A DNA stretch of 53,018 nt from Desulfovibrio sp. An276 (GTDB lineage: Bacteria > Desulfobacterota > Desulfovibrionia > Desulfovibrionales > Desulfovibrionaceae). Shown one piece after another: positions 564-8,186 of this stretch. The stretch's first letter is position 1. Each line of letters begins with the position of its first letter. Under the pieces are notes generated by a model. That model was given only the letters and a program-made list of their open reading frames with translations, was not told where the DNA came from and ran no database searches. The stretch covers positions 1 through 53,018 of the forward strand of contig NZ_NFJC01000021.1 of the NCBI RefSeq assembly GCF_002159665.1, given 5' to 3'. Position numbers and translations under genes: made by a program.

Positions 564-1358
564 TCAGTTGCCTGCACGGGCGTGATCGTCCTTCCACCAG
601 CGCTGTGCCTTGTTCAAAAGCAGGTCTATGTCTCCTGCAGAGGCCAGGCTCAAGAGCTTCGAGAACTGGCGCACTGCCTGCATGCTGTAGGGATTTGAGT
701 CGAAAAGGCCGGCAAACATGGCTCCGTCCTCTGTCAGAAGCTTCTTTGCCGCGTTGAGGCGGCGCCTGAAGGAGGGGGTGATGAACTCCTTCAGAGTCTC
801 GTCGTCCGCTGTCTGTGCGCAGTAGGCAAGGGAGGTGATGAAGTTCATGTTCTGGATGCGGGCCATGGCCTTGTCGTGTGTGTCCGCATCCGTGGCAAAG
901 GCGCGGTAACCCAGGGAGACAAAGAAGTCCCGGACAAGCTCGAAGGCCGTGTTTGTACAGTTTTTGCCGCGCACAAGGGCTATGGGCAGATCCTCGTCCA
1001 TGCCGTGCTGAGGCCCGAAGAGGGGATGGGTTCCCACGATGCTCCCCTGCCAGATGTTTTCCATCTGCTGCATGGGCGCCACCTTGACCGAGGTGATGTC
1101 GCAGAGAATGGCGTCCTCTCTCATGTGCGGGCAGAGCCTGTGCAGGGTCTGTTCGAAAAAGGCTGCGGGAATGCAGACAATGACGAGGCTTGCCCGTGAG
1201 AGGGGCTCAAGATCGTCAAAGGGCTTGTCTATGCCACGCACTCCGTACCCTTTTGATCCTGCCTCGCGAAAGAGCATCCCCCCCATGCGCCCGAAGCAGC
1301 CCACGATGACCACGCTTGAGGGCGCAAGCAGGGCGGAACAGGCATTGGTGCTAGTCAT
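564..1358 (-). CDS. tyrA: prephenate dehydrogenase
   Basis: TyrA oxidatively decarboxylates prephenate to 4-hydroxyphenylpyruvate in the tyrosine branch. The 264-residue protein starts at an ATG that overlaps the aroA stop (ATGACTAG), giving translational coupling; the longer open frame upstream lies inside aroA. A Rossmann motif GCFGRMGG is at residues 20-27 and the substrate-site motif GTHPLFGPQHG at 109-119 carries the conserved catalytic His111. The C-terminal part (170-264) is the helical dimerisation domain. There is no fused chorismate mutase or ACT domain; the mutase is on pheA upstream. It is the last gene of the operon, followed directly by the terminator at 514-537. Confidence 0.92.
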   Translation of the reverse strand: MTSTNACSALLAPSSVVIVGCFGRMGGMLFREAGSKGYGVRGIDKPFDDLEPLSRASLVIVCIPAAFFEQTLHRLCPHMREDAILCDITSVKVAPMQQMENIWQGSIVGTHPLFGPQHGMDEDLPIALVRGKNCTNTAFELVRDFFVSLGYRAFATDADTHDKAMARIQNMNFITSLAYCAQTADDETLKEFITPSFRRRLNAAKKLLTEDGAMFAGLFDSNPYSMQAVRQFSKLLSLASAGDIDLLLNKAQRWWKDDHARAGN

Positions 1359-2733
1359 CGACGAAAGCCTCGAATGTTTTCCAAAAATCCGGGAAGGACT
1401 TGTTGACCACCTTGGGATCGTCCATGAGGCGGAACATTTCCGGTGCGCGCACGTCATTGGCCTTCAGGGCAAAGAGCGCCTGGCTCATGGCCATGCGGTG
1501 ATCGTTGCTGGTTGCAAAGCGCTTGCCCTGGAGATTCAGGCGCACATCGCTGCCCATGCCTTCAATGACAAGCCCGTCCTCCTTTTCCTCCACCTTGACG
1601 CCAATGCTTCTTAATGCATTGGCAGGAGCCTTGATGCGGTCCGTTTCCTTGATGCGCAGATGGGCCACGTTGGAGATGCGCGTTGTGCCATTGGCAAAGG
1701 CTGCCAAAACGGCAACTGTGGGCACAAGATCCGGGCACTGGGACATGTCCACGTCAACGCCGTGCAGGGGGGTGGGAGTGATGGTGATGCCATTGTCCGA
1801 GCTCGTTAGCTTGGCGCCCATGTCCTGGATGATGTTGATAAGGGCGCGATCGCCCTGCAGGGAGTCTGTGCGAACGCCCTTGACGCGCGTGGCCTGCCTG
1901 CCAAGGGCTCCGGCAGCGACAAGGTAGGATGCCCCGGACCAGTCGCCTTCCACATAGAAGTCGCCTGCCCTGTAGGGACCGGGCTGAACCTTGACGCGCA
2001 GGCACATGGGCTCGACGTGACTCAAGGTGCGCCAGTCCGCTGCAAGCCAGTCGTCGTCCACATGCTCCCTTGTCTCGACCAGGAACTTGACGCCAAAGTC
2101 GTGCATGCACTGCAGGGTGAGGCCGATATAGGGCCAGGAGACCACGTGGCTTCCGCCAAGGACCAGGGTTATCATTTCCTCTGCCTGGGGGCTTGCCAGC
2201 AAAAGGCCGGAAAAGTACTGGCTCGACTCGTCCATGCTCACTGCCAGGGCATGCATGCCTACGTGTTCCTGGGCAGGAAGGTTGTTTGCCCTAATGCCGC
2301 GGGTGCGGATCTGCAAAGGCGCAAAGCCTTCCCTTTCCTCGCAGACAATGTCGCAGCCAAGGGCGCGCAGGGCATTCACAAGAAAGCCCATGGGACGCTC
2401 GTGCATGCGCGGTGCCCCGTGTATGCGGAAATTGCCCTTGCCCGAGGCAAGGACCGCAGTCAGAAGGCGGCAGGTCGTCCCGGACTCGTGCACGTAGCAG
2501 GAAAGAGGCTCTGTCTTGCCACCTAGGAGCTTGCCCATTGTCCCCTGCACCTGCCAGCTTCCGCCGGCAAGGGGAGTGAATCTTGCCCCTGCCAGGGAAA
2601 GGATTTCCCTTGTGCAGGTGGTGTCGTTGCTGTCCAGAACGTTGTGTATGGTGCTTGTCCCGCTGGCAAGGGCCGCAGCTATGAGATAGCGGTGGCTGAA
2701 GGACTTGGATGCAGGAGCTGTTACTTCAATCAT
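1351..2733 (-). CDS. aroA: 3-phosphoshikimate 1-carboxyvinyltransferase (EPSP synthase)
   Basis: AroA transfers enolpyruvyl from PEP to shikimate-3-phosphate, the sixth shikimate step. I chose the ATG at 2733 (MIEVTAPASKSFSHR): SKSFSHR matches the conserved phosphate-binding start of the family, and AAAGGA sits upstream; the longer open frame adds unrelated residues. Of 460 residues, the second half shows LRIKETDRI and the NDHRMAMS motif, both active-site signatures. It is slightly longer than the usual 430. A 147-bp gap containing an 11-bp hairpin separates it from pheA, and its stop overlaps the tyrA start. Confidence 0.93.
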   Translation of the reverse strand: MIEVTAPASKSFSHRYLIAAALASGTSTIHNVLDSNDTTCTREILSLAGARFTPLAGGSWQVQGTMGKLLGGKTEPLSCYVHESGTTCRLLTAVLASGKGNFRIHGAPRMHERPMGFLVNALRALGCDIVCEEREGFAPLQIRTRGIRANNLPAQEHVGMHALAVSMDESSQYFSGLLLASPQAEEMITLVLGGSHVVSWPYIGLTLQCMHDFGVKFLVETREHVDDDWLAADWRTLSHVEPMCLRVKVQPGPYRAGDFYVEGDWSGASYLVAAGALGRQATRVKGVRTDSLQGDRALINIIQDMGAKLTSSDNGITITPTPLHGVDVDMSQCPDLVPTVAVLAAFANGTTRISNVAHLRIKETDRIKAPANALRSIGVKVEEKEDGLVIEGMGSDVRLNLQGKRFATSNDHRMAMSQALFALKANDVRAPEMFRLMDDPKVVNKSFPDFWKTFEAFVDD

Positions 2734-2777
2734 TGAAAAAGGGTCCTTTGAAAATATCTTTCTGGTCGAACACCGGG

Positions 2778-2834
2778 CTCCCCCGGCCATACAGGGCATT
2801 CCTTGTTGGGGCTGGCACTGACTGGTCGGGGGAG
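2778..2834 (-). repeat. long-loop inverted repeat between pheA and aroA
   Basis: CTCCCCCGGCC (2778-2788) pairs with GGTCGGGGGAG (2824-2834): 11 pairs with one G.T and a 35-base loop. It lies in the only sizeable gap inside the operon. No T-run follows on the minus strand, so I read it as an RNA processing or stability hairpin rather than a terminator; function unknown. Confidence 0.5.
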
Positions 2835-2879: not shown

Positions 2880-4061
2880 CTAGTCGTCTACGCTGTCTTC
2901 AGGCTCCCAGACGCGGTCGAGCTGCGGGCCTGTGGCATAGGAGCCCAGGATGCGGAAGGTGTTGCACATATCGCTCAGCTCCTGGACAGGTGCCCTGAAT
3001 TCCTCGCGCATAAGATCCTCTTCCACGTCCACGAAGAAGACGTACTTCCACCGCTCTCCGAGCAGGGGACGCGATTCCAGCTTGCGCATGTTGATGCCGT
3101 TCTTGGCAAAGAGCGTCAGCACGGAGGAAAGGGAGCCAGGCTTGTCGGCAAGGGTGAAGAGAATGGAGGTCTTGTGGCCGCTTGTCAAAGGCTTCTTGTT
3201 CAGGGGCAGGCTTCCGAGCCTGTTTTGTTCGCCCTCGCGGGCAATGACCACAAAGCGCGTCCAGTTGCCGGGAGAGTCCTCGATGCGCTTGGCAAGGACG
3301 TTCATGCCGATAAGGTTGGCGAGGCTGCCGTTGCCGATGGAGGCTGCATGCGGTGTCTCGGCTGCCTTGCGGGCAGCAGCTGCAGTGCTTTCTGCAGGAA
3401 TGAGTGCCGCTCCGGGCAAATGGGCCCGCAGCCAGAAGGCGCACTGGGCAAGGGGCTGGGGGTGGGAGTAGACAGTCTTGATGTCCGAAAAGCTTTCTTC
3501 GCGGCTCAAAAGGCAGTGGGAGATGCGCGAGAAAAGCTCTGCCTGGATGACCACAGGGAACTTCAAAAAGAGGTCAAAGCTTATGCCCACGGTTCCCTGC
3601 AGGGAGTTTTCCAGTGGCACTATGCCGAGATCGCAGGTGGTGGCGTTCACTTCCTCGAAGACAGCCGGCAGGTCCACGCAGGCGCGGTACCTTGCGCTGT
3701 GGCCCAGAAATTCCAGGCCTGCGAAGTAGGAGAAGGTTCCCTCTGGCCCAAGGTAGGCGACCCGTAGGGGGCGCTGCAGGGCCCTTGAGGAGGACATGAT
3801 CTCCCGCCAGATGGAGCGAAGGGCAGATTCGGGCAAGGGACCCGTGTTTCGCGCGCACAGGCGCTCCAGGATTTCCTGCTCACGCTGGGGCTTGAAGATG
3901 GAGCTCTTGTCGTCGGCCTTGATGCGGCCAACCTCCCTGCTCAAAGTCGAGCGCTCGTTCAAGAGATCCAGAAGTCTTGAGTCGATCTCGTCGATGCGGG
4001 CCCTGGTCCTGGACAAGAGTTCTTCCCTGGACAGGGCGGGGGCAGATTCTTGCTGTGCCAT
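2880..4061 (-). CDS. pheA: bifunctional chorismate mutase/prephenate dehydratase
   Basis: Makes prephenate from chorismate and then phenylpyruvate. Residues 12-95 are an AroQ-type chorismate mutase (helical, RIDEIDSRLLDLLNER). Residues 100-275 are prephenate dehydratase with GPEGTFS (105-111), ESTAAA (224-229) and WTRF (267-270, the catalytic Thr-Arg-Phe). Residues 297-375 are an ACT domain with ESRP (329-332), the phenylalanine-binding motif, so allosteric feedback by Phe is expected. Its mutase also feeds TyrA. The 393 residues are normal for the P-protein. It follows the DHQ synthase II gene by 4 bases. Confidence 0.94.
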   Translation of the reverse strand: MAQQESAPALSREELLSRTRARIDEIDSRLLDLLNERSTLSREVGRIKADDKSSIFKPQREQEILERLCARNTGPLPESALRSIWREIMSSSRALQRPLRVAYLGPEGTFSYFAGLEFLGHSARYRACVDLPAVFEEVNATTCDLGIVPLENSLQGTVGISFDLFLKFPVVIQAELFSRISHCLLSREESFSDIKTVYSHPQPLAQCAFWLRAHLPGAALIPAESTAAAARKAAETPHAASIGNGSLANLIGMNVLAKRIEDSPGNWTRFVVIAREGEQNRLGSLPLNKKPLTSGHKTSILFTLADKPGSLSSVLTLFAKNGINMRKLESRPLLGERWKYVFFVDVEEDLMREEFRAPVQELSDMCNTFRILGSYATGPQLDRVWEPEDSVDD

Positions 4062-4065
4062 GAAG

Positions 4066-5046
4066 TTAAACCTCGGCGATCTCTTCCTTGATGCGCATGC
4101 CGAAGTGCCTGCCTGCCTCGTCGATGCGGCAGAGTATCTTGTCTCCGGGCTTTAAGGTCACAACGCTGACAGGTCTTCCGCCAGGAGCAGTGAGGCGGAT
4201 GGTCTCTGCGTTCTGCAGGAAAACTGCGCCCTGCTTTTCGCCCTCGGGTGTCTGCACCTTTGCCTTGACAAGGAGCATGGGGCGCACCTCAATCTTGACC
4301 CGACCGACGGTGGTGATCATGGTCTTGCCGTCCTGGTCCACGATCTGGACCTCACGGCCAGCCTTGAGCTCCTCAAGATAGCAGGTCTTGTCGTGGGGAA
4401 GTCTTGTGTAGGCGTGCACTGCACCAGCGTTGATCCGAAAGGGACGGGCTGCCACGTATTCGTTGTGCTCGGTTTCAGCATGCACAAGGAAGGTGAAGTC
4501 CGAGGAATTGCCCACCAGCATGCCCTGGCCGCGGCGCAGCATGGCAATGGTGTCGCAGCACACCCTGTGCCCAAGGCCAGCCTGCTCGACTGCAGTTACC
4601 TCTGCCTCGCAAAGGCACTCGTTTTCGAGGCAGATCTTGCAGTTGGCAACAATGGCCTTCAAGTCGGCCAATGCCTCCGGCAGGACCACAATGCCGGTAA
4701 CACCGCGCTCGAGAATGCCGGAAGCAAGCTCTGCTTCCTTGAGGCTTCTCACCTCGGCATAGACCGCATCGCTCTGGGCCAGGAGGTTTTCGACAGGGAT
4801 GATTTCCCAGCCAGGGGCAAGGGTGGCAAGGCCCTTTTTTGCAGCCTCAAGATAGGTTGCCTCGTCTTCCTTCTGCGTGAGGGCAATGCTTGGCACATCC
4901 TCGGCAGCAAGGACCTTGCAGCGGGAGAGGCCGGACACAAGCTCGACCTCTTTGGCAGGCACAATGACTGCGTCGACGCCGGACTCCAGGGCCAGGGTGA
5001 CGTCTTCCTTGGAGTAGGGGATGGCCTTGAAAAGAATCTGTGCCAT
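4066..5046 (-). CDS. 3-dehydroquinate synthase II
   Basis: A 326-residue protein of the archaeal-type dehydroquinate synthase family (DHQS-II, MJ1249 type), unrelated to AroB. In the family it oxidatively deaminates and cyclises 2-amino-3,7-dideoxy-D-threo-hept-6-ulosonate to 3-dehydroquinate with NAD. The C-terminal half (about 170-326) carries the characteristic VGNSSDFTFLVHAET and ARPFRINAGAVHAY segments. It stands 5 bases downstream of the aldolase-type ADH synthase gene that supplies its substrate, an arrangement that defines the alternative entry into the shikimate pathway. The gene is widespread in archaea and Desulfovibrionales. Confidence 0.9.
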   Translation of the reverse strand: MAQILFKAIPYSKEDVTLALESGVDAVIVPAKEVELVSGLSRCKVLAAEDVPSIALTQKEDEATYLEAAKKGLATLAPGWEIIPVENLLAQSDAVYAEVRSLKEAELASGILERGVTGIVVLPEALADLKAIVANCKICLENECLCEAEVTAVEQAGLGHRVCCDTIAMLRRGQGMLVGNSSDFTFLVHAETEHNEYVAARPFRINAGAVHAYTRLPHDKTCYLEELKAGREVQIVDQDGKTMITTVGRVKIEVRPMLLVKAKVQTPEGEKQGAVFLQNAETIRLTAPGGRPVSVVTLKPGDKILCRIDEAGRHFGMRIKEEIAEV

Positions 5047-5051
5047 TGGAG

Positions 5052-5849
5052 CTATTCTCCCACGATCTTGAGTGCGGTTTCGACGTCTGCGTCCTCGTGC
5101 ACGAGAGCGCGCAGGGCGCGGACCATCTGTACGCGCCTCGGATGGGCGAAGACATTGCGGCCCATGGAGAGACCGGAACCGCCGGCCTTCAGGCTGTCGT
5201 GGACCATGTTGAGCACGTCGCGGGTGGATTCCATGCGGGGGCCGCCGGCAATGACCACGGGCACGCAGCAGGAGGCAACAACGTCGGCGAAGCTGGACAT
5301 GTCGCCGGTGTAGCTCACCTTGACGATGTCTGCGCCAAGCTCGACACCCACGCGGGCGCAGTGGGCCACGACTTCGGGAGCGTAGGAATTCTTGATCTTG
5401 GGTCCGCGGCCGTACATCATGGCGAGCAGAGGCATGCCCCAGTTGTCGCAGGCTTCGGCAACGCGGCCGAAGTCGGCGAGCATCTTTTCCTCGTTGGGGT
5501 CGCCAAGGTTTACATGGATGGACACGCAGTCAGCGCCGTGGCGGATGCCTTCCTCAACGGAGGAGACCAGGGCCTTGTAGTTGCACTGGGGAGAAAGGTC
5601 GGTGGAGGCGGACAAATGGACAATGAGGCCGATGTCAGAGCCAGCCCTTCTGTAGGAGCAGCGGATAAGCCCCTTGTGCATGAGCACTGCGTCTGCACCG
5701 CCCTGGGCCATGTCGTTGACGGTTTCCTTCATGTCCATGAGACCGGGGACTGCGCCCATGGAAACACCGTGGTCCATGGGAACGATGATGGTGCGGCCGT
5801 TGTTGCGGTTGATGATGCGTTCGAGGCGGATTTGTTTGCCGAAGTACAT
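5052..5849 (-). CDS. 2-amino-3,7-dideoxy-D-threo-hept-6-ulosonate synthase (class I aldolase family)
   Basis: First gene of the aromatic operon. The family condenses a 6-deoxy-5-ketofructose phosphate with aspartate semialdehyde, replacing DAHP synthase. The 265-residue TIM barrel shows VPMDHGVSMG (24-33), GADCVSIHVNLGD, and DIVKVSYTGD with Lys177 as the expected Schiff-base residue, followed by the phosphate-binding AGGPRMES. A related class I aldolase or LsrF assignment is possible by fold alone, but adjacency to DHQ synthase II decides the call. Its expression is set by the attenuator directly upstream. Confidence 0.9.
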   Translation of the reverse strand: MYFGKQIRLERIINRNNGRTIIVPMDHGVSMGAVPGLMDMKETVNDMAQGGADAVLMHKGLIRCSYRRAGSDIGLIVHLSASTDLSPQCNYKALVSSVEEGIRHGADCVSIHVNLGDPNEEKMLADFGRVAEACDNWGMPLLAMMYGRGPKIKNSYAPEVVAHCARVGVELGADIVKVSYTGDMSSFADVVASCCVPVVIAGGPRMESTRDVLNMVHDSLKAGGSGLSMGRNVFAHPRRVQMVRALRALVHEDADVETALKIVGE

Positions 5850-5906: not shown

Positions 5907-5949
5907 AAAAGAAAAAGGCCGCCGGCTTGAAAGATAAGCCTGCGGCCTT
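5907..5949 (-). terminator. attenuator terminator upstream of the aromatic operon
   Basis: Read on the minus strand: AAGGCCGCAGGCTT (5949-5936), loop ATCTTTC, AAGCCGGCGGCCTT (5928-5915): 13 pairs with one A.G mismatch, continuing into TTTTTCTTTT. It is a textbook intrinsic terminator but lies 58 bases before the first structural gene and 25 bases after the leader peptide stop, so it should end transcription prematurely. Confidence 0.88.
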
Positions 5950-5998
5950 GTTGAGCTCAGTTTTCTTGGGGCGTCAGCCGAGCTCCCGACCACAGGCT
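5937..5998 (-). promoter_or_regulatory. antiterminator alternative of the aromatic attenuator
   Basis: AGCCTGTGGTC (5998-5988), inside leader codons 14-18, can pair over 11 positions (two G.U) with GGCCGCAGGCT (5947-5937), the 5' arm of the terminator. The two structures are mutually exclusive. A ribosome stalled early in the aromatic codons leaves 5998-5988 free, allowing the antiterminator; one that reaches the UGA covers it, freeing the terminator. GAGCTC at 5985-5980 and 5958-5953 gives a further possible hairpin. Pairings were found by hand; energies were not calculated. Confidence 0.75.
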
Positions 5999-6039
5999 CT
6001 TCTAAAGTACGCAAAGTAAAACCAGCACATGCCGGCCAT
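5974..6039 (-). CDS. aromatic-codon leader peptide (transcription attenuation)
   Basis: A 21-codon frame from ATG (6039-6037) to TGA (5976-5974), too short for ordinary gene finders. Residues 6-12 are W-F-Y-F-A-Y-F, six aromatic residues in seven, so all three aromatic tRNAs are sampled. It lies between a sigma-70-like promoter and a terminator upstream of genes for chorismate, Phe and Tyr synthesis, just as in the enterobacterial pheA and trp leaders. The ribosome site is weak; a second in-frame ATG at codon 4 is an alternative start. The role is inferred from layout. Confidence 0.82.
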   Translation of the reverse strand: MAGMCWFYFAYFRRACGRELG

Positions 6040-6102
6040 GTTTGCGGAGGAGATTGTGGTGGAAGCAGCGTTCATGTTCGTCCCGATACGAAAAAATAGT
6101 TG

Positions 6103-6124
6103 GCAAACTTCCATTGAAGTTTGC
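6103..6124 (-). promoter_or_regulatory. 9-bp perfect palindrome at the predicted transcript start
   Basis: GCAAACTTC-CATT-GAAGTTTGC. It begins at the expected +1 of the operon promoter (6131-6160), so it could be an operator for a repressor or a 5' stem-loop that protects the leader RNA. It is followed on the minus strand by a T-rich run (6097-6091), so it could also act as a terminator for the upstream DHH gene. Confidence 0.55.
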
Positions 6125-6130
6125 AGCAAG

Positions 6131-6160
6131 TGCATACGTCCAAAGGCCTGTTCTTGTCAA
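6131..6160 (-). promoter_or_regulatory. sigma-70-type promoter of the aromatic operon
   Basis: On the minus strand TTGACA (6160-6155, perfect consensus) and TATGCA (6136-6131) are 18 bases apart, placing the start near 6124, about 85 bases before the leader peptide ATG. No better promoter is seen between the DHH gene and the leader. Confidence 0.7.
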
Positions 6161-6228: not shown

Positions 6229-7239
6229 TCACTTGTCTCTGGCGCGCGGTCTGAGCTTTCTTTTCTGCAGCCTTTCCTGGACAAATTCCATGCAGCTCTT
6301 GCCCTCGGGGACATTCTCGAAGGGAAACTCTGCCCTGCCAAGGGTGCGGTGGCCGCCGGCAGTGCCCACGTCGTAAAAGCAGGCGTCCGCAAGCCTTCCT
6401 ATGTCCCTGCTGCCGTCCCCGCGGAAGATGACGACAACGGTCTTCTTGAGCACAAGGCCGCTGACTGCTATCCACTTGAGCCCGTGCACGCGGGTGAAGA
6501 AGTCCGCAATGGCAACCAGAAGGTCTGCGTTGGTGACGTCTCCCACCCAGGCGTGGGCGCCGGAGCCCCTGCATTCGGAGAGGTTGCGGAAGGCCCTGGC
6601 AAAGAGGGGGAGCCAGTTGCGCAAATATTCGCTGCGTATGATGCGGCGCAGGAGCTGCTGGTTTGCCTTGCCCGAGAGCCACTGGTAAGCATCGAGGTCG
6701 TCCTTGCCGCCGCCACGCTCGAAAAGGGCCGTGTCCGTGCGTATGCCAAGCGTCATGGCTGTAGCGAGTGTGGGGCTTGGACGCAGGCCAAGGCCACGCA
6801 GGTAGGAGCAGAAGATGGTGCAGGTGGCACCTATGTGGGGGCGTATGTCCACAAACTGCGGCTGAAAGTCCGGCTGGCATTCAGCTCGCGGTGCAGGATG
6901 GTGGTCCACGATGACCGAGAAGGGAATGTCTGCAAAGGCCTTCGAGTGATGGGGCTGGCTGTCCACAATGGCAAAGTGGGTGTACTTTTCCTTGAGGCTC
7001 TCCTCCCACATGGGAATGTTGAGGTGCAGGTAGCGCAGCATGGCCAGATTGTCCGGCCTTGTAATTTCGTTGATGCGGTACATGTCTGCGCTTGTGCGGC
7101 TTGCCATGATGCGTTTCAGGGCCGCTGCAGAGCCCATGGCGTCCGGGTCGGCGTTGATGAGAATGCACCAGCGCTGATTCCTGTTCACGGTCTTGAGCCA
7201 GTCCTTCAAAGCCTGCAGGATCTTTCCTCGTTGAGCCAT
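6229..7239 (-). CDS. DHH family phosphoesterase
   Basis: A 336-residue DHH/DHHA1 protein (RecJ/NrnA superfamily; nanoRNase, pAp-phosphatase or c-di-nucleotide hydrolase activities are known in the family). Metal-binding motifs: NADPDAMGS (29-37), VDSQPHH (92-98) and VDHHP (111-115), with a C-terminal GGHRTLG typical of DHHA1. I take MAQRGKIL at 7239 as the start because it has an AAGG site and the longer frame adds unrelated sequence. Substrate cannot be told from sequence. It lies 82 bases after the CbiR-like gene on the same strand. Confidence 0.85.
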   Translation of the reverse strand: MAQRGKILQALKDWLKTVNRNQRWCILINADPDAMGSAAALKRIMASRTSADMYRINEITRPDNLAMLRYLHLNIPMWEESLKEKYTHFAIVDSQPHHSKAFADIPFSVIVDHHPAPRAECQPDFQPQFVDIRPHIGATCTIFCSYLRGLGLRPSPTLATAMTLGIRTDTALFERGGGKDDLDAYQWLSGKANQQLLRRIIRSEYLRNWLPLFARAFRNLSECRGSGAHAWVGDVTNADLLVAIADFFTRVHGLKWIAVSGLVLKKTVVVIFRGDGSRDIGRLADACFYDVGTAGGHRTLGRAEFPFENVPEGKSCMEFVQERLQKRKLRPRARDK

Positions 7240-7321
7240 TGTGTTGCCTTGTCCGGGCAGCCGGACCGTTCGGGGAGACGTCTTGGGAGACGTTTTTGGG
7301 GAAATGGGAAAGGCGCGTCTT

Positions 7322-8101
7322 TTAGGCGAGCTTGTCGTGCACCCTGCGCCACAAATCCTGCACGATAGCAAGGCTTGCCTCGACACCCTGCCAGTCGAAG
7401 ATTTCCAGCACATGCACGGCAGACGCAGGGACGTGCTCCATGACATGGCCCAAAAGGCCTTCCTCTTCCTTGCTCATGGCAGTGAGTGGCAGATGCCTGC
7501 CCGCTGAATCCGCCAGATTCCAGTGCACCATGGCCGCTTTGGCAAGCAGACACGGCTTTAGCAGATCCTTTTGATGGTAGCGCAGAAGGTGTCCAAGGTC
7601 CAGACAAAGGCCGTCTGCGCCCAGGCTTGCAGGATCAAGGCAAGCCCCCGGAATATGAGCCGTATTGCAGTATCTTGTGTTTTCTAAAAGCACAGGGCAG
7701 GCACACCCCTCGCGCCAGACCCCGAAAAAGGCTTCAAGCATGGCAGGGGCCGCAGCCATGTCTTTTGGCGGGTGCAGGACCACGCACCAGGGGGCAAGGT
7801 GCGCAACTTGTGCATACAGCTCAAGGCAAATTTGGGCTGTCCTTTTGCCTGTATCTTTTGCGTTCATGCCGGGCGCAAGGTCCTTTTCCCAGGGCAGATC
7901 CAGGGGAAGGTGCGCATGAAAGGCCAGATCACGGGGTGCCTCGGGCAGATCCTCAGGCCCGTAGGCAAGGCAGGCACTAGTCTCGAAAAGGCACAGTGCA
8001 ACCTCGGGGGCCTTGCCTTGGAGAAAGCTGCAGTTTTGGGAAACGGATCCTGGCACAACCCAGGAGGGGGCTGCCCAGCGAAAGACGGGTTTTTCCTGCA
8101 T
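7322..8101 (-). CDS. cbiR: CbiR-like cobamide remodelling phosphodiesterase (TIM barrel)
   Basis: A 259-residue xylose-isomerase-like TIM barrel. The N-terminal PSWVVPGSVSQNC, then VALCLFE and FHAHLPLDL are features I associate with CbiR, which removes the nucleotide loop of salvaged corrinoids so that they can be rebuilt; Desulfovibrio-type bacteria use cobamides in several methyl transfer pathways. The start at 8101 (MQEKPVF) is chosen because the longer frame runs through the terminator of the preceding protease gene. A generic sugar-phosphate isomerase/epimerase of the same fold is the alternative. Confidence 0.6.
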   Translation of the reverse strand: MQEKPVFRWAAPSWVVPGSVSQNCSFLQGKAPEVALCLFETSACLAYGPEDLPEAPRDLAFHAHLPLDLPWEKDLAPGMNAKDTGKRTAQICLELYAQVAHLAPWCVVLHPPKDMAAAPAMLEAFFGVWREGCACPVLLENTRYCNTAHIPGACLDPASLGADGLCLDLGHLLRYHQKDLLKPCLLAKAAMVHWNLADSAGRHLPLTAMSKEEEGLLGHVMEHVPASAVHVLEIFDWQGVEASLAIVQDLWRRVHDKLA

Positions 8102-8124
8102 GGCGAGATGGACCAGTTTGGGGC

Positions 8125-8164
8125 AAAAACAGGGCGCGGCACGGGAGAAAGCCTCGTGCCGCGC
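8125..8164 (-). terminator. intrinsic terminator of the M16 protease gene
   Basis: Perfect 10-bp stem GCGCGGCACG/CGTGCCGCGC (8134-8143 with 8155-8164) followed on the minus strand, after four bases, by TTTTT (8129-8125). It sits 22 bases past the protease stop and directly before the CbiR-like start. Confidence 0.8.
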
Positions 8165-8186
8165 AAGTCTTTTCAAAAAGGAAGGA

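Follow-up and report, generated by a model that had tools for sequence, protein, structure and literature searches.

Which signal governs the genes that open aromatic amino acid synthesis in Desulfovibrio sp. An276, and what kind of device reads it? The question is raised by a short segment of the minus strand, 6160-5907 of the window (by which we mean the whole 53,018-nucleotide stretch of contig NZ_NFJC01000021.1 analysed here). In this segment a preliminary description had recognised a promoter, a small frame crowded with aromatic codons and two alternative RNA pairings, followed by the genes for ADH synthase, 3-dehydroquinate (DHQ) synthase II, pheA, aroA and tyrA. Our analysis, which combines the comparison of related genomes with a folding model, indicates that 6160-5907 is very probably a ribosome-mediated transcription attenuator of the ADH synthase–DHQ synthase II–pheA–aroA–tyrA operon.

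Layout of the regulatory region and its operon

The ADH synthase/DHQ synthase II operon is predicted to be the entry to the aromatic pathway in this genome, because family searches of the genome gave no match for AroB or for a class II DAHP synthase, and both of its PF00793 matches are KDO8P synthases. A single ADH synthase match was found across the 3.2 Mb and 98 contigs. The two KDO8P synthase genes lie about 18 kb apart on contig C22 (13764-14525 and 32571-33323; loci L334 and L333), each flanked by frames of similar size.

The features of the region are collected in Table 1. The promoter TTGACA-18-TATGCA of the preliminary description is borne out when the minus strand is read, and the 11-bp antiterminator pairing (two of its pairs being G-U) and the 13-bp terminator with its T run are present as claimed; the terminator stem consists of 8 bp, an A.G mismatch and 5 bp, and stands 65 bases ahead of the ADH synthase gene. 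The downstream genes are also those that had been named, four of them above curated cut-offs and the TyrA-like one below; the contig starts 563 bases beyond the end of the latter. The leader frame had been described correctly in its W-F-Y-F-A-Y-F cluster and needs correction at its start, since the 21 codons counted from 6039 are part of a 33-codon frame from 6075. A start at 6039 was rejected because that codon reads Ile in L139, and L139 and L140, the closest two of the relatives compared, both retain a start at 6075. A weak Shine-Dalgarno-like GGGA lies 5 nt upstream of this ATG, and the stop codon TGA occupies 5976-5974.

Two further observations concern the sequence upstream. A T-rich run comes after the 9-bp hairpin 6124-6103. 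This hairpin was rejected as a part of the family device, because the matching segments of 62 loci fold on average like shuffles (mean z-score 0.08, at or below -2 in 6 of them; -3.4 in the window). A gene for a CbiR-type cobamide remodelling phosphodiesterase is found at 7322-8176 (minus strand), two genes upstream.

Table 1. Features of the attenuator region and operon in the window
Feature	Position	Strand	Basis or remark
-35 box TTGACA	6155..6160	-	read from sequence
-10 box TATGCA	6131..6136	-	18-nt spacer from TTGACA
Hairpin, 9 bp, at predicted transcript 5' end	6103..6124	-	folding
Leader peptide frame MNAASTTISSANMAGMCWFYFAYFRRACGRELG	5974..6075	-	33 codons + TGA, ATG at 6075
Regulatory codons W-F-Y-F-A-Y-F	6004..6024	-	read from sequence
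Antiterminator 5' arm AGCCTGTGGTC	5988..5998	-	within last codons of leader frame
Antiterminator extension, 5' side, GAGCTCGG	5978..5985	-	paired in nascent-RNA fold
Antiterminator extension, 3' side, CTGAGCTC	5953..5960	-	paired in nascent-RNA fold
Antiterminator 3' arm GGCCGCAGGCT = terminator stem 5' side	5937..5947	-	pairing, covariation
Intrinsic terminator	5907..5949	-	stem 5949-5915, T-rich run 5916-5907
ADH synthase (2-amino-3,7-dideoxy-D-threo-hept-6-ulosonate synthase), operon gene 1	5052..5849	-	TIGR01949, 385.8 bits (cut-off 299.45)
3-Dehydroquinate synthase II	4066..5046	-	NF002628, 512 bits (cut-off 508)
Chorismate mutase/prephenate dehydratase (pheA)	2880..4061	-	NF008865 and TIGR01807 above cut-off
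EPSP synthase (aroA), putative start	1351..2799	-	TIGR01356 above cut-off; frame overlaps tyrA frame
Prephenate dehydrogenase-like (tyrA)	564..1457	-	best NCBIfam matches below cut-off; same position in relatives

Conservation across the order and selection on the RNA

The family sample comprised 119 genomes, with a DHQ synthase II match in 109. Besides the genome of the window, 100 of the 107 usable genomes were examined; the fragment G064 was excluded, and G049, G055, G078, G095, G097, G109 and G111 are missing. The 100 loci counted here include the window and leave out L085, which comes without upstream sequence. When a leader is scored as at least six W, F or Y within 10 codons, located in the 500 nt that precede the first ADH synthase gene, it is present in 96 of the 100 loci, compared with 11 of 2000 base-shuffled segments. 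Below this threshold are L042, which scores 5 and has a leader by eye, and L100, L129 and L131, in none of which a leader was found (L100 is without an adjacent ADH synthase). A terminator and a paired arm follow the leader in 97 of the 100 loci, L131 having been left out of this count for a spurious terminator call; the preliminary description had looked to relatives without the frame or the arms as a sign against its reading, and frame, terminator and arm are kept at these 97.

The anatomy extends well beyond this sample. Among 80 loci from named relatives, a leader is seen by eye (score of at least 4) in 72, including D. piger, Nitratidesulfovibrio, a Bilophila MAG, Mailhella, Humidesulfovibrio and Desulfonauticus. 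Seven of the eight misses are without upstream sequence, and the remaining one, L195, is a true miss, with an ADH synthase present and no leader found in its upstream sequence. In five other families of the order, 26 of 30 loci have the leader and 24 the full anatomy, and in 22 of these 24 at most one of 50 shuffled arms pairs as well as the real one; the four leaderless loci hold an ADH synthase copy around which the stretch examined contains no DHQ synthase II. All six families sampled within the order have the anatomy. The observation is real and far beyond chance.

If the frame were there by chance and the terminator simply belonged to the gene upstream (6229-7446), the promoter of the operon lying downstream of 5907, it would be natural for a terminator to be found 3' of a gene on the same strand. 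The probability of this explanation is practically negligible, given that the anatomy recurs at 97 of 100 loci and that a promoter element accompanies it: all 65 non-redundant loci have TTGAC within the 170 nt that precede the aromatic codons, compared with 35 of 325 control segments drawn from the genes downstream. TTGACA allows 62 of these 65 loci to be aligned, and exactly 18 nt downstream of it the alignment is enriched in T (63%) and A (66%); the -10 box shows no conservation beyond these two bases.

On average, an arm pairs better with the partner from its own genome than with one from another genome. The mean pairing energy is -27.3 kcal/mol for an arm with its own partner and -23.3 kcal/mol when partners are swapped between genomes, compared with -16.6 for a shuffled arm and -16.8 for neighbouring segments; the own partner is better than the swapped mean in 86 of the 97 loci. 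No more than one of 50 shuffled arms pairs as well as the real arm in 89 of the 97, and more than one does so in L035, L079, L080, L105, L113, L124, L125 and L130. Covariation was followed in 65 non-redundant sequences, obtained from the 97 with an 85% identity filter. In this set 88.8% of the antiterminator is paired, and 5 of its 11 pairs show double changes (as many in 1 of 500 shuffles); for the terminator the corresponding figures are 98.0% and 8 of 11 (as many in 0 of 500). For the antiterminator, one of the five measures, that of further pair types, is no higher than in shuffles (157 of 500), and the outer pairs (columns 10-109, 11-108 and 20-99) often fail. The pair formed by columns 14 and 105 is U-A in 35 sequences, C-G in 19, U-G in 7 and A-U in 3, with 22 double changes from U-A to C-G or A-U. 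Column 105 falls on the A.G mismatch, which stays unpaired in the terminator, so that the terminator does not explain this covariation.

The residues at the C-terminus of the leader peptide are similar in many loci, as they might be in a control of the TnaC type, where the leader peptide itself stalls the ribosome on ligand binding. In such a scheme a ligand, for example an aromatic amino acid, would stall the ribosome and the C-terminal ACGREL would be the arrest motif. The conserved stretch is, however, the RNA arm. Pair 14-105 falls in the Cys/Arg/Ser residue of ACG, ARG and ASG, and the changes of this residue match the base in the terminator arm; moreover, in L099 and L086 (QPVV) and in L219 (SVV) the RNA arm is kept while being read in another frame. 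No conserved peptide independent of the RNA pairing was found, the residues following the pairing and the frame changes. Judging from these alignments, it is the RNA rather than the peptide that is under selection in the arm, because some genomes keep the arm in another reading frame, and peptide arrest is very unlikely.

A structured RNA of another class acting at the leader site, such as a T-box, a riboswitch or the target of an RNA-binding protein, would agree with the finding that the leader of the window folds better than its shuffles (z -4.05). We give this little credence, less than peptide arrest, since in neither the window nor six related loci did any Rfam family, amino-acid operon leaders included, reach its gathering score. 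The three sub-threshold matches in the leader region belong to unrelated families.

Proposed switch and the amino acids that it may sense

A leader-peptide attenuator, as first proposed, is the best reading of an anatomy found at 97 of 100 family loci and at 24 of 30 from other families. In the proposed mechanism, the speed of translation through the aromatic codons of the 33-codon leader would decide whether RNA polymerase enters the operon. As long as charged tRNA-Phe, tRNA-Tyr and tRNA-Trp are plentiful, the ribosome would reach the stop codon at 5976-5974 and cover the arm 5998-5988, upon which the terminator 5949-5915 would form and transcription would stop near 5907. With any of the three charged tRNAs short, the ribosome would wait within 6024-6004 and leave the arm 5998-5988 free; the arm could then pair with 5947-5937 before the 3' half of the terminator exists, and the operon would be transcribed.

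To model this switch, a ribosome was placed at each codon in turn, and the RNA that it leaves uncovered, assumed to begin 13 nt past the first A-site base, was folded in the window and across 65 loci. With the ribosome at W, F, Y or F of the window, the probability of the antiterminator is 0.99; it is 0.75 at the last Y, 0.50 at the last F, and 0.00 from the codon after that through the stop. The best stall gives a probability of at least 0.8 in 63 of the 65 loci, and the ribosome at the stop one of at most 0.1 in all 65. The regulatory codons are placed, in the folding model, so that the arm is exposed by a stall and hidden once the ribosome reaches the stop; RNA folding, which had been suggested as a check, thus comes out in favour of the attenuator, with stalls at aromatic codons allowing the antiterminator and a ribosome at the stop forbidding it. 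In the full-length RNA of the window the complete terminator is a competitor even when the stall is a favourable one (0.42-0.55), so that the model depends on the antiterminator forming before it.

In the trp operon of E. coli, a protector hairpin gives termination without translation. In the window a protector-type (1:2) pairing is seen in the full-length fold and is absent from the nascent fold. As a general feature the protector hairpin is unsupported, since the antiterminator forms without a ribosome in many loci (median probability 0.77; at most 0.2 in just 22 of 65), and for the same reason an untranslated leader might read through.

As to the residues that may be sensed, every one of the 65 non-redundant leaders has both F and Y no more than 12 codons from the arm. 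Of the three aromatic residues originally put forward as sensed, Phe and Tyr are thus represented by constant codons and Trp by variable ones. Where trp genes lie downstream in the operon, the leader has one W in 13 of 37 cases and at least two in 24; in operons with no trp genes, W is absent in 10 of 24, single in 13 and double in one (L042). Four leaders, that of the window among them, were left out of this comparison where the sequence ends. The trend has the same direction when redundant rows are included (62 and 28 loci). It appears that more Trp codons are present where trp genes follow. On the DHQ synthase II tree, however, about three changes suffice to account for the trp label, and well supported branches force two of these; the trend is therefore only suggestive and was rejected as proof of Trp sensing.

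The leader could also be an attenuator of the enterobacterial kind that answers to Trp only or to Phe only, with the other aromatic codons as bystanders. W does come first in the cluster of the window, and leaders with runs of Phe codons exist on ADH synthase paralogs. This explanation is nevertheless unlikely, being at odds with the constancy of F and Y and with the absence of W in 10 of the 24 leaders without trp genes. In addition, dominance of the best 8-codon stretch by a single residue (80% or more of its aromatics) is seen in only 1 of 65 main leaders, compared with 22 of the 27 paralog leaders that come with a terminator. What these comparisons predict is a real, order-wide attenuator with a mixed aromatic leader.

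In the genome of the window, trpE is on a different contig from the operon. This separate trpE (locus L031, contig C23) is preceded, at 3082-2981 of the minus strand, by the frame MYSTSFTYNMLAETGFAGFWWWHCARKGVGQAL and a terminator; the leader frame at these trp genes contains FWWWH, and the terminator adjoins trpE. We infer that this Trp leader is a candidate attenuator of the separate trp operon. In the relative L140 (88% in DHQ synthase II), trpE was not found within the stretch examined.

Leaders on other synthase copies and relation to known systems

Leaders of related design are found ahead of stand-alone ADH synthase copies. We examined 40 upstream regions (L253-L292), hand-picked among the matches listed and lying away from the DHQ synthase II operon, and frames were listed in 20 paralog neighbourhoods. 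A Phe-run (at least four F in 8 codons, such as RFFFFSFF or FFFSFFFF) occurs in 19 of the 40 and a Tyr-run (at least four Y in 10 codons, such as SSYYYYGY or AYAYYYYY) in 10; none has both, 11 have neither, and two of the 19, L288 and L292, are mixed. Shuffles reach a Phe-run in 3 of 2000 cases and a Tyr-run in 3 of 2000. Examples of paralog leaders are L262, L271, L275 and L287. Among the 30 paralog loci with an aromatic frame, a terminator is present in 27 and was not found by the scan in 3. The arms pair at -18 kcal/mol or better in 25 of these 27, and 19 of the 27 beat their shuffles (1 of 50), namely 13 of 14 Phe-run, 4 of 10 Tyr-run and 2 of 3 mixed leaders. From the 13 of 14 as opposed to the 4 of 10, a predicted antiterminator is well supported at Phe-run leaders, whereas at Tyr-run leaders the support is patchy and in most of them it is a candidate. 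On a tree of 20 full-length ADH synthase copies the Phe label changes four times (three forced) and the Tyr label three times (two forced), which fits, and does not prove, more than one origin of the two kinds of leader.

Taken together, these observations incline us to the view that in the Desulfovibrionales one RNA device has been re-specified by its codons, with a mixed version on the entry operon, a Trp version on trp genes and Phe-only or Tyr-only versions on the additional copies. The isozyme-specific versions are the least secured part of this account. If it is true, the isozyme feedback known elsewhere from allostery and repressors would here be written in leader codons, and from the Phe-run and Tyr-run leaders of the additional ADH synthase copies one could learn, as from a natural experiment, what becomes of attenuator specificity once a gene is duplicated.

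Outside the order the device is harder to recognise. At E 1e-4, a model built from the leader alignment (R1) has matches in 65 out of 395 genomes from the phylum; the family of the window accounts for 17 of the 65. Fourteen matches outside the order were examined, the genes being named by family search for 6 and by frames alone for 8. Aromatic leaders were seen ahead of an ordinary DAHP synthase in L300, L302 and L307, from other families of the phylum, and ahead of an ADH synthase in L295; in the other 10, no aromatic leader before an ADH or DAHP synthase was seen. An R1 match alone was rejected as a sign of membership, since 4 of the 14 have both leader and synthase. L294 and L308 are among these 10, and the match in L294 (E 4.7e-12) lies ahead of a transporter gene. 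Aromatic-rich short frames are found, again in other families of the phylum, at 385-481 of L308, ahead of a metallo-beta-lactamase-like gene, and at 172-469 of L299, ahead of a gene with no shown role in aromatic metabolism.

The preliminary description knew of no described case of this kind, which must be qualified. In 2005 a putative attenuator was listed, in Table 7 of a study whose entry was drawn from a database of predicted attenuators, at the D. vulgaris aroA'-aroB'-pheA-aroF-tyrA-[trp] operon (PMC1173090); operon type and predicted upstream attenuator are the same as here. The term 'leader peptide' is absent from the main text of that study, and its relevant passages do not treat codons, covariation, spread or paralogs (PMC1173090). 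A search by term found no mention of this attenuator in the searched text of PMC545781 and PMC2965389. In the literature covered, whose scope leaves out most subscription papers, no account of a Desulfovibrio leader peptide for this operon, of its codon logic or of the isozyme versions was found. A survey from 2013 of four Rfam attenuator motifs places them, in the parts consulted, mainly in gamma-proteobacteria, and suggests a gamma-proteobacterial origin with few transfers (PMC3766115). For Actinobacteria, the consulted part of another study reports leaders of trp, leuS, ilvB and cys and none for Phe or Tyr (PMC1262725).

Expression studies offer points of contact. According to the relevant passages of PMC5701242, nitrate induces the operon and the trp genes in D. 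desulfuricans, which its authors called unexplained, and co-regulation under nitrate and nitric oxide is operon-wide. The corresponding passages on D. hydrothermalis describe lowered expression of the operon at high pressure, again with operon-wide co-regulation (PMC4162548). If the attenuator is real, it would provide one mechanism to test against both the nitrate induction (PMC5701242) and the lowering at high pressure (PMC4162548). It would also explain how the aromatic pathway is controlled in an order of sulfate reducers, gut members included, whose entry into the pathway is unlike that of the textbook.

The closest models for such a device are enterobacterial. The trp and pheA leaders (trpL and pheL) sense one amino acid each and control end-branch genes. 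The Desulfovibrio leader resembles them in its short frame with codons for the product, in its overlapping antiterminator and terminator, and in preceding an operon for the same amino acids. It differs from them in having Phe, Tyr and usually Trp codons, in preceding the entry enzymes, in being without an Rfam match, and in that a protector hairpin is not general. In the multivalent attenuators of ilvGMEDA, ilvBN and thr, one leader senses several related amino acids. The multi-residue leader is alike in these systems, although theirs are concerned with branched-chain amino acids or with threonine and isoleucine, and that of Desulfovibrio with aromatic ones. Finally, in E. coli the DAHP synthase isozymes AroF, AroG and AroH each answer to one aromatic amino acid, through allostery and repressors. 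Copies of a first enzyme are common to both cases, and in Desulfovibrio the specificity is predicted from the leader codons of the ADH synthase copies.
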